A stretch of DNA of 64,000 nt from a virus. The notes beneath the pieces were generated by a model. That model had not been told where the DNA came from, searched no databases, and worked only from the letters and a program-made list of their open reading frames with translations. The stretch lies in IMG/VR virus record IMGVR_UViG_3300046507_000371, positions 117,436 to 181,435 of that record; one strand, written 5' to 3'. The position numbers were made by a program, and so were the translations under genes. The number at the start of each line of letters is the position of its first letter. Positions within the stretch are counted from its first letter, which is position 1. Of the stretch, positions 29,860 to 61,367 are shown in pieces.

Positions 29860-29935
29860 TGGTGAAAACGACGGGACTTGAACCCGTAACCAACGGTTTT
29901 AGAGACCGTTGCTCTGCCAATTGAGCTACGTTTTC
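29860..29935 (-). tRNA. Amber suppressor tRNA (anticodon CTA), tRNA-Trp-like
   Basis: A canonical cloverleaf: acceptor GAAAACG/CGTTTTC, D arm GCTC-AATTGGCA-GAGC, anticodon arm ACGGT-CTCTAAA-ACCGT, T arm ACGGG-TTCAAGT-CCCGT, discriminator A and encoded CCA. Loop positions 34-36 are CTA, which reads UAG. The D and anticodon region CGGTCTCTAAAACCG differs from bacterial tRNA-Trp (CGGTCTCCAAAACCG) mainly by one base in the anticodon, so it looks like a natural tRNA-Trp-derived suppressor. It might be charged with Trp or Gln. Confidence 0.9.
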
Positions 29936-55022: not shown

Positions 55023-55032
55023 CTTATACCAA
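55023..55032 (-). promoter_or_regulatory. TTGGTATAAG promoter motif at the edge of the inverted repeat
   Basis: Directly below the left arm of the 55063-55632 repeat region. It drives thg1 and probably the polymerase genes. Confidence 0.7.
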
Positions 55033-55060
55033 AACCACTATAGATTAGTGACTTTTTGGA

Positions 55061-55632
55061 CGTGTCCAGTTTCCTTAAAAAATGTCCAGTTTTAAAATTT
55101 CAGAATTCTTCTTTATAATCAAAGACTTAAAGAGGGTTTGTCCAGTGTGTCCAATTCTTGTTTAGAAAACTGGACAGGTGTTTTCTCTTTAGAATCAAGA
55201 GCTTAGATACGATTGTCCAGAAATTTCGGCTTTTTCGCAAAAACCATACCTCACTTTCTAATAGCCAAAAGATTTACCAAAAAAGAAAACAGACCCCTTA
55301 TATATAAATATATTTTTTAAAAGTTCAAATATAAATATATATATAGTACCCCCTGTTTTCTGGACTGGTTAGGGCTAACCCTAAGTTTTTCTTTTTTTGT
55401 TTTTTATTTAGTCAAAAAGAAAGTGAGGTATGGTTTTTGGAAAAAAGCCGATATTTCTGGACAAAGTGACTTAAGTGTTTGATTCTAAAGAGTAAAATGT
55501 GTCCAGTTTTTTTTAGAGAAATTGGACAAACTGGACAGATGCTAGTTAAGTCTTTGATTCTAAACATTATTTTTCAAAAGTAAGAACTGGACATTTTTGG
55601 ACAAAACTGGACACATTGAATTTGAAGTCCAG
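55061..55632. other. Candidate replication origin: large inverted repeat with TGTCCAG iterons
   Basis: No gene is supported between 54945 and 55783. The region is AT-rich and its two halves are imperfect mirror images over ~200 bases each: for example AATTTCGGCTTTTT...CCATACCTCACTTTCT (55220-55260) against AGAAAGTGAGGTATGG...AAAAGCCGATATTTC (55420-55457). TGTCCAG occurs at 55063, 55083, 55139, 55214 and 55500, and CTGGACA at 55170, 55457, 55531, 55587 and 55607. The centre (55285-55355) is almost pure A/T. Iterons, symmetry and an AT core beside the replication genes fit an origin. Confidence 0.65.
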
Positions 55633-58424: not shown

Positions 58425-61367
58425 TTATTCGTTGAATTCACCGATATTTTTAATCGTATCTGGAGCTAGACTCATATCCAGTGTCAGCACAACTCTTCGA
58501 ATACCGTTTAAACCCATCTTTACCTTGCGTTCATCACTTACAAAATACGGTTCTTCTCGTATAGCTGACAGCACTGCATTTTTCGAGAATGCAAATCTAC
58601 CCCTAGTATCATCTAACACCTGCTTAAACACTGCAGGGTACCAGATGTGAATCAAGTTACCTTCAGTCAAAACGTGTGAGATGTTAATCTTCTGATGCTC
58701 CTGAGCCATCATGCCTTCTACGAGTTCAAAGAACTGCATAACCGTAGTGTCAGCCTTTTGACTAGTAGCTTCTTCAGCAGAAGCCTTAAACAGAAACTCT
58801 TTGAAGTTGAACTCAGGAATGTACTTGTCAGCAATACGCTTTGCAAATACTCCGATTGCCGCCCAGTTCTTAGAAGTTCGCTGAGAGCAATTAGCCTCTC
58901 TAACAAGTTCCTTATCCAGGTCTCGAATCTCATCTTTGAGCTTGTCCATATCTTCGTCAACGCTATCAAGAATCCAGTGATAAACAACACCACTGAATAG
59001 ATGACGACGATCCTCAAGCCAACGATACGATTCTGTTAACTCTCGGTTGTTTACCGGAATACGAACAGGTATGCAGCGCTCCCTGGTTGCAGGGTCCTCA
59101 AATAAGTCTTCACCGACGAACATGAAGCAGGAACGAACTTCTTGAGTCTTGACACCAAAACCATCTTTAACTCCCATCGTTCTTGGAGTACGGTCATAGT
59201 ACGTACGGAACAAGTTCACATACTCTTTCGTCTCTTGGTCTGATCGAATTTCATCGATGAAGACTGGAAGTGAAGAATAGTACTCAACCTTACGACCCCA
59301 ACCTACTGCTGACTTCAACTGCGGAACTGAAGTGTAGCCACAGTCACGCATATCATAAAAGTCTTGAATCCACTTCGCAATCGAAGTCTTACCTTTACCC
59401 TTCGTGCCCCATAGGAACAGATACGGAAAACTCTTGTTTAAAGAGAAAATCGTATTTGAATAAATACAAGCATACATCCAGCCTAGAAGAATCAAAGCAT
59501 GACCTGGATTGTTCAGATTCTTACTCAGATTCTCCACGATACCCTTCATGAGATCATCTGCTTCAGCTCTTGAGATGTCAGGCTCGATATAAGGAATATC
59601 GACTTTCCCGGAGTTGTCCCCAGTTGTGTGAACCTGGTTCGAGGCAACGTTGAGCGATTCAGGTCTAATACCAACTGTCTTACCTGCAAGCCAAAATACT
59701 CCATCCTTATCTGGTTCGATAACAGCCCCTGTGTCAGAAATGAATCGATTGCGGAAGATCCAACCGCGCATTCCTTCATGACGTCCAACAGTTCGTGTAA
59801 CACGGACTTGTGTTTCTGATGACTGGGAGTAGACGAGTTCCCAAAGTCCAGACATATCTCGTTCATTGCCTTTGAAATCGGCGTCAACCGCTCTTGCAAG
59901 CAATGTTCTGAAAGGCTTGAGAGAGACTTTGGTTTCCGAGTCGATTAGAATTGGAATACTCTTTTGACCGTCTTCTCTGACGATAACGACTTCACGATGT
60001 CTATCCCCATCTTCAGTAATGTAAATGTTCTTCAGTACGATTACAAAGTCACTTACTTTAGTGTACTGAGGCTCACCTTCTTTAAACGTTACTCGCCAGT
60101 AGGAACCCTTCTTCTGAACAATTGAGTTCTGAGCTAGTTCTTTTCCGGGAGGGAGGATTTCAATATCTCCTGAATCTTCTTCAGAAATATCTCGTTCTCT
60201 TTCTCCGTTATGTCCTTCACCGCCTGCCGACTCCATTCTCTGAAGATACGAGCCCCCATCGAACTGTACTTTTCCAGACCCGGACTCCACAGCCACGACC
60301 TGCGTTCCTGGCCCTTTGCTCGCTTCAATAAGCGCATCTACATCTGCTCCATTGCAAATCAGTTTATCAATGTCATCTTCACGTTCTCCAGGAATTACCT
60401 GAATTACAGTAGATAACGCTTTACGAAGTTTATCAACTTTAGTTCGATACTTATCACCAGCTTCATCATTATCGAAGAACGTTACAATTGTCTTCTTGCT
60501 GAGATTCTCACGAATCCAGTCAAGTTGACTACCGGAGATCTGACCGATAGTTGCCAGTACGCCAGTTTTACCTGCACGCAATAGACTCAAACGATCATTC
60601 TCACCTTCAACGATGTAGACAGTGTCTTTACCTACAACAGTATCTTGTCCCCAAAATTGATGCCCGTTAAGACAGAACCGATTTGGAAGCTGATACGCCA
60701 ATTTCTTAAGCGGATCTTTGAAGGTAAAGTGGGAGACTCTACCTTTCACATAATGAGGATAGATGAATACCTTCGAAGGGAGGAAATCACGACCAGTCTT
60801 TTCACTCTTAAGTCCTGAAGCTAGAAGAATCTCTGTGTCATACCCCAATGCTTCAAGATACGCTACAACTCCGCCATCAGACCAACCTACATGTTCCTGC
60901 TTGAGAATCTCTTCAGAGTGTCCTCGTACCTTCATTTGATACTCGGACGGAGTCATCTTCGCAAGCTCCATATAGGGCTTGTTGCACTCTTCCCAAAGAC
61001 AATTCTCGTAATACGCTGCTGCTAACTGGAAAATCTCTGCAATCGGATTGTAGTCCGAAGGCAGTTTAATATCATGTTCCTTCGAAAGCTTAAGACACGC
61101 TTCTCGAAGAGTTACATCATTACGTTTTGCAGTCCACTCAATGACGTCTCCATGAGCCTCGCAGCTAAAGCAGTGGTAACCTGCCTTCTCTGGTTCGTCC
61201 TCATTAAAGAACATCTTGAAGCAGCCTTTATGACCACAGAATGGACAACCTACGTCTTCATCGTCTTCAAATCTAAATGTGTTTGTACCATTTTCTACAA
61301 TTGACTGCTGAGTATCGTTTGCGATTTGCTCAAGCAGGTTTACAGCCTTTTTAATTGTTTCAAACAT
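58425..61367 (-). CDS. Primase-helicase (CHC2 zinc finger, Toprim, D5-like ATPase)
   Basis: The 980-residue protein joins priming and unwinding. The zinc finger is CPFCGHKGC and HCFSC (41-69). The Toprim core is VYIVEGENDRLS (near 255) and VTFFDNDEAGDK (near 296). The C-terminal ATPase has GTKGKGKTS (Walker A, near 646) and LPVFIDEIR (Walker B). The middle (~370-600) is an unassigned linker domain. This is a primase of T7/DnaG type fused to a superfamily-3/DUF927-like helicase. Confidence 0.9.
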   Translation of the reverse strand: MFETIKKAVNLLEQIANDTQQSIVENGTNTFRFEDDEDVGCPFCGHKGCFKMFFNEDEPEKAGYHCFSCEAHGDVIEWTAKRNDVTLREACLKLSKEHDIKLPSDYNPIAEIFQLAAAYYENCLWEECNKPYMELAKMTPSEYQMKVRGHSEEILKQEHVGWSDGGVVAYLEALGYDTEILLASGLKSEKTGRDFLPSKVFIYPHYVKGRVSHFTFKDPLKKLAYQLPNRFCLNGHQFWGQDTVVGKDTVYIVEGENDRLSLLRAGKTGVLATIGQISGSQLDWIRENLSKKTIVTFFDNDEAGDKYRTKVDKLRKALSTVIQVIPGEREDDIDKLICNGADVDALIEASKGPGTQVVAVESGSGKVQFDGGSYLQRMESAGGEGHNGERERDISEEDSGDIEILPPGKELAQNSIVQKKGSYWRVTFKEGEPQYTKVSDFVIVLKNIYITEDGDRHREVVIVREDGQKSIPILIDSETKVSLKPFRTLLARAVDADFKGNERDMSGLWELVYSQSSETQVRVTRTVGRHEGMRGWIFRNRFISDTGAVIEPDKDGVFWLAGKTVGIRPESLNVASNQVHTTGDNSGKVDIPYIEPDISRAEADDLMKGIVENLSKNLNNPGHALILLGWMYACIYSNTIFSLNKSFPYLFLWGTKGKGKTSIAKWIQDFYDMRDCGYTSVPQLKSAVGWGRKVEYYSSLPVFIDEIRSDQETKEYVNLFRTYYDRTPRTMGVKDGFGVKTQEVRSCFMFVGEDLFEDPATRERCIPVRIPVNNRELTESYRWLEDRRHLFSGVVYHWILDSVDEDMDKLKDEIRDLDKELVREANCSQRTSKNWAAIGVFAKRIADKYIPEFNFKEFLFKASAEEATSQKADTTVMQFFELVEGMMAQEHQKINISHVLTEGNLIHIWYPAVFKQVLDDTRGRFAFSKNAVLSAIREEPYFVSDERKVKMGLNGIRRVVLTLDMSLAPDTIKNIGEFNE

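Follow-up and report, generated by a model that had tools for sequence, protein, structure and literature searches.

Homologous palindromic iteron arrays as candidate replication origins at three sites of a ~181-kb tailed phage genome

The herpesvirus origins oriS and oriL are palindromes in which an A/T centre is flanked by inverted initiator sites, and they occur in three copies per genome. Several origins in large phages are known mainly from T4, and phage P4, whose replication protein is considered below, is a small satellite. In T4, about five origins are active early on a ~169-kb circularly permuted genome, and they share no motif (PMC3016281). The hrs of baculoviruses are dispersed, AT-rich and palindromic; they act as origins and enhancers, and were first proposed as origins for their symmetric location, AT content and palindromes (PMC6669502). 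The Rep protein of SaPIs uses its C-terminal domain to read iterons at an origin immediately downstream of rep (PMC7581432), and the alpha protein of P4 unites a primase and the initiating helicase in one protein (PMC7145576).

Here we describe a palindromic iteron array, element A, in a lytic-type tailed phage whose ~181-kb genome maps as a circle. We read it as a replication origin, one of three homologous ones in that genome; judged from sequence patterns, this reading has a probability of roughly two in three. Multiple phage origins and dispersed palindromic viral origins are known already, and what would be new is a homologous origin set in a phage. A literature search, with most subscription literature outside its coverage, returned no report of a homologous, dispersed set of palindromic origins in a phage. 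In the main text of the paper on the related Salmonella phage Arash, the term 'origin of replication' is absent and the two matches to 'repeat' are unrelated.

The window, a stretch of 64,000 nucleotides that comprises bases 117436-181435 of the virus record (G000), carries element A at 55060-55614 as an iteron array arranged around an A/T core. A first-pass annotation had described a gene-free region with mirrored halves, ten TGTCCAG words and a nearly pure A/T centre, and each of these features was recovered on closer examination. No gene crosses element A. The left outer arm (55062-55176) contains exact TGTCCAG iterons at 55063, 55083 and 55139 on the plus strand and at 55170 on the minus strand, and the right outer arm (55500-55614) contains iterons at 55500 (plus) and at 55531, 55587 and 55607 (minus). 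The left inner arm (55181-55289) and the right inner arm (55388-55496) add one iteron each, at 55214 (plus) and 55457 (minus). Ten exact TGTCCAG/CTGGACA words, five per strand, thus fall within 551 bp, compared with 0.03 on average, and never more than 1, in shuffles of the same stretch. Both the outer arms (115 nt) and the inner arms (109 nt) are 77% complementary. BLAST of the element against itself aligns 553 bp in inverted orientation at 69% (E 8e-63), and folded as single-stranded DNA the element is 17 standard deviations more stable than its own shuffles.

The 48-bp core (55299-55346), a candidate unwinding element, is all A/T save two bases and is nearly invariant between copies. It is flanked by an inverted pair of inner motifs, CCATACCTCACTTTCT in the left half (55244-55259, plus strand) and AGAAAGTGAGGTATGG in the right half (55418-55433, minus strand), and this pair is common to all TGTCCAG-type copies and to contigs L030 and L031. 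A short perfect palindrome, TTAGGGCTAACCCTAA (55369-55384), adjoins the core and persists in altered form in other copies of the element; other clades possess a related core, TATATATA..TTTTTT..AAAA. The spacers between iterons (55104-55136, 55471-55491 and 55546-55566) consist of a repeated hairpin-like module resembling TAAGNCTTTG. The first-pass annotation had also suggested that the arms could extrude a cruciform. The pairing of the arms is confirmed, but extrusion is not needed, given that one clade keeps only ~24-bp arms, which leaves the iterons and the AT core as the conserved parts. Rfam, run over the window at curated thresholds, yields tRNAs only, and element A therefore contains no known RNA family. 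An RNA-structure reading was set aside, as the inverted words are common to otherwise unrelated spacers and it is spacing, not pairing, that is kept.

The first and last 86 bases of the record (G000:C1:1-86 and 181350-181435) form an identical direct repeat, by which the sequence closes into a circular map of 181,349 bp. It is a tailed phage genome with phage core genes. The element is present three times in this circle, as A in the window and as two homologous copies outside it, B (G000:C1:113592-114152) and C (G000:C1:67321-67880, reversed), with gaps of 46, 59 and 76 kb between copies. Each copy holds ten exact iterons, so that 30 of the 48 exact TGTCCAG copies in the 181-kb genome sit inside the three elements. 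The iteron-type origin proposed at first pass stands as the best supported reading, but not as a single origin, with three copies here and two to five in relatives. Element B is adjoined by a gene for a TROVE/Ro60 protein (L009:4214-5872, minus strand; E 4e-35 and 5e-54), and a reverse transcriptase gene (RVT_1, 1e-23; L010:857-1876, minus strand) lies a few kb from element C.

The DNA of the element finds no match among GenBank phages, and relatives were therefore sought by pattern and protein scans. A pattern scan with the core recovered nine more stretches on six contigs. Among them are the three loci of a sister species, which keeps A, B and C at the same places in stable order and position; at locus C, the left and right spacer modules are swapped between the two species. 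A scan with Thg1 added relatives at 75% amino-acid identity that have the same architecture in front of Thg1. Their contigs break inside element copies, and the copy distances of 49.5, 57.4-59 and 75 kb agree with closure of the circle. By DNA polymerase and primase, the nearest named relatives are Salmonella phage Arash and Vibrio phages D69, D148 and D181. These named phages and eight long IMG/VR contigs found by way of the primase formed the sample, in which genomes were compared with themselves.

Every one of ten full-length genomes carries an AT-rich noncoding repeat family of 3-5 copies: three copies in D69 and G012, as in G000, four in G010, and five in Arash and G013-G017. A 168-kb partial record (G011) holds two. 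Simple ORF calls cover part of the repeats in G013 as if they were coding, but these ORFs are probably spurious. Conservation of the symmetry in relatives had been set as a test beforehand, and the same structure was found family-wide: an A/T core between inverted iterons, the word of which differs by lineage (TGTCCAG or TGTCCAA; TGCTACA; GGTTACAACGTTTG; CGTACCAA; TGTCACA; ATGTGTCG). The G000-type element has DNA-level homology to the elements of G010, G011, G018 and G019, a homology still detectable in genomes with 55% primase identity. The best scores of the G000 core in Arash fall on exactly the five Arash elements, a result to which base composition may contribute. These five lie at 26.7, 66.5, 100.2, 138.6 and 173.4 kb and have GTTACAA as their iteron word. 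A set of 35 genes, with RNA polymerase subunits and a sigma factor among them, is common to all eleven genomes. As controls, T4, ICP1, KVP40 and phiKZ were put through the same repeat search, which returned no comparable AT-rich noncoding family above 120 bp; T4, KVP40 and phiKZ have AT-rich noncoding families of short repeats only (82-115 bp). In Vibrio phage KVP40 (NC_005083), seven such repeats of ~115 bp are dispersed over 35.7-238.2 kb.

The geometry of the array is fixed. Nearly throughout eight copies from four species, sites are spaced 9-22-44-33 bp to the left of the core and 35-43-22-9 bp to the right, with spacers that differ in sequence; the next site out on the right follows at 55/56 bp, and the outer runs are spaced 10 bp. 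These values lie near multiples of ~11 bp, as might be expected of proteins bound to one face of the helix. The copies also evolve in concert. Outside the element, paralogous copies are 24-41% identical, that is, unrelated, versus 52-89% for orthologues, and in the element centre the copies of one genome match each other (80-94%) as well as orthologues do (79-91%), which indicates that copies are homogenised within genomes. In clade III, the Arash copies are 86% identical to each other versus 65-68% to those of G014 and G016. The spacing between copies is unusually even: the probability under random placement of a minimum gap as large as that seen is 2e-5 for Arash, 2e-5 to 3e-4 for G013-G016, 0.006 for G017, 0.005 for D69, 0.009 for G010, 0.08 for G012 and 0.055 for G000, values that are not independent because genomes of one clade share ancestry.

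We infer origin function, the identity of the initiator and the melting step from these patterns. Clustered repeats of one word and an adjacent A/T-rich region, features of iteron origins, are both found here and kept between copies and species. The origin reading draws support from the mirrored iterons around the A/T core, the fixed geometry, the family-wide conservation, the even spacing, the existence of copies between convergent genes, concerted evolution, a predicted helicase fold like that of SaPI Rep and the lack of a ParB, ParA-type or tubulin gene in four genomes. A phage initiator would bind in several copies to the inverted TGTCCAG iterons that flank the core, the core would then melt, and helicase would be loaded on both strands before priming. 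With replication starting at each copy, the genome would be copied from several evenly spaced points, and probably, as the sequences suggest, phages of this family start DNA copying from several identical sites at once. Gene conversion, together with recognition by one shared trans-acting protein, would keep the copies alike. Skew at fourfold sites in ten genomes reveals no switch at the elements (lead-minus-lag GC skew 0 to -0.11, if anything in the wrong direction), and a test of gene orientation around the elements in the same number of genomes gave no origin signature. In each of the ten, genes directed away from their nearest element have a fourfold-site GC skew no higher than that of genes directed towards it; the difference is small and not significant in individual genomes.

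The most likely initiator, judging from a structural model and by analogy, is a 980-aa primase-helicase (58425-61367, minus strand) with a Zn ribbon, a TOPRIM domain and a helicase domain, which may work like SaPI Rep. Element A lies 3 kb downstream of its gene. The first third of the protein is DnaG-like by sequence. The predicted structure (pLDDT 81.5) matches DnaG and, in its helicase half, SaPIBov1 Rep (8tch, Foldseek E 1e-12) and SCCmec Cch (5dgk, 4e-14), with a moderate TM of ~0.5 on the target; a DUF927 profile was negative against these primase-helicase proteins. In 11/11 genomes the primase gene has its nearest element on its downstream side, at 0.76-7.7 kb, a distance not in itself unusual in clades I and III. 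Divergence along the primase reveals no clear domain that tracks the iteron word.

Compared with the origins of SaPIs and PICIs, the present system is alike in its iterons; its candidate initiator may share the helicase fold, and a candidate origin lies downstream of the gene. A SaPI, however, has one origin right behind rep, whereas here 2-5 copies are dispersed, the gene is 0.8-7.7 kb away, and the helicase has a DnaG-type primase fused in front of it. That fusion recalls P4 alpha, which belongs to a small satellite rather than to a ~181-kb phage. T4 likewise has several origins in a genome of similar size, but without a shared motif, whereas the elements described here are homologous, palindromic and iteron-based. 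The baculovirus hrs are also dispersed, AT-rich and palindromic, an analogy only, since there is no homology and an hr comprises many 30-bp palindromes versus one 200-550-bp array here. The parallel with herpesvirus oriS and oriL is structural only, the viruses and the initiator being unrelated.

The surroundings of the element bear on whether it serves transcription instead. To the left of element A lie Thg1 (phrog_4717, 2e-71) and a family-A DNA polymerase, and to the right HU (PF00216, 5e-24) and the primase. These neighbours are as the first-pass annotation had named them; the element, which it had placed between operons, sits between two co-directional minus-strand genes and not between divergent operons. 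Among 44 copies with both neighbours known, simple ORF calls place 25 in co-directional, 13 in divergent and 6 in convergent contexts, and the elements are independent of neighbouring gene direction. The convergent cases are D69 and a single locus, apparently orthologous, in five genomes of clade III. An element need not therefore be upstream of anything and is not simply a promoter, and a promoter-only reading was rejected on these grounds. A wider possibility, which we consider unlikely, is that the iterons bind a regulator that activates adjacent phage-RNAP promoters, either alone or alongside an origin role, as in baculovirus hrs. The phage family does encode its own RNAP beta/beta' and sigma, and halovirus HF2 has promoters within its intergenic repeats (PMC8707807). 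Just outside element A, CTTATACC (55023-55030), which is GGTATAAG on the minus strand, forms a candidate phage promoter that reads towards Thg1. In G000, GGTATAAG has 43 copies versus 6 for permuted words, 42 of them on one strand and 1 on the other, with a similar strand bias in G010, G011, Arash, G013, G014 and G016; it probably serves the phage polymerase as promoter for one class of transcripts. It stands just outside all three G000 elements, reading away from them, which leaves room for an added enhancer role. Against this weigh the copies between convergent genes and the ~40 other GGTATAAG sites that have no element, and an enhancer alone gives no reason for the even spacing or the conserved centre.

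Even spacing, high-order palindromic arrays of sites and indifference to gene context would all suit partition-like or genome-organising sites, that is, nucleoprotein hubs at regular intervals by which replicating genomes are arranged, paired or segregated. We regard this as quite improbable: ParB_N, AAA_31 and Tubulin profiles have no match in G000, G010, Arash or D69, with positive controls, and an A/T core so strongly conserved points to melting more than to binding alone. The homogenised copies and the exchange of arms at locus C between species indicate that recombination happens at the elements. That they are themselves packaging (pac/cos) or site-specific recombination sites is nevertheless very improbable, since the order and positions of the three copies are stable between species and the G000 record ends away from them; the packaging site offered as an alternative at first pass is further disfavoured by the dispersed copies, three here and two to five in relatives, where a single one would be expected. 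A mobile repeat of the MITE type, or passenger DNA of another kind, would likewise be inverted, noncoding and multicopy, but it hardly accounts for elements that keep orthologous places across large divergence, for the fixed iteron geometry and the even spacing, or for flanks that are unrelated between paralogues yet conserved between orthologues; we give it next to no weight.

If the elements are origins, they would form a homologous set that can be counted and predicted from sequence. Since the family has at least one member in culture, Arash, the number of origins, their spacing and the specificity of the initiator would then be open to direct test; in T4, where origins share no sequence, what makes an origin remains unclear. 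With an iteron word that shifts between lineages and a geometry that stays constant, the family is a natural series in which to look for the initiator and the code by which it recognises its sites. More tentatively, and with the odds against it, we propose a ~180-kb tailed phage family whose 3-5 evenly spaced, homogenised palindromic replicators both start replication and set the genome layout, the spacing itself being selected. Were this true, the phage chromosome would be multi-replicon, its layout reflecting replicon length or the pairing or folding of copies.

Three minor observations concern the genomes at large. In Arash (OQ632216, 66432-66938), an HU-like frame on the plus strand starts just right of Arash element 2, opposite the annotated hypothetical gp116c, which is likely an annotation error. 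The G000 record contains a 201-bp tandem duplication of 85% identity (G000:C1:76596-77002). Among 21 phage tRNAs, the one at window positions 29860-29935 (minus strand) has the anticodon CTA (assigned Pyl by ARAGORN, with a strong Rfam tRNA score) and is possibly an amber-suppressor tRNA.
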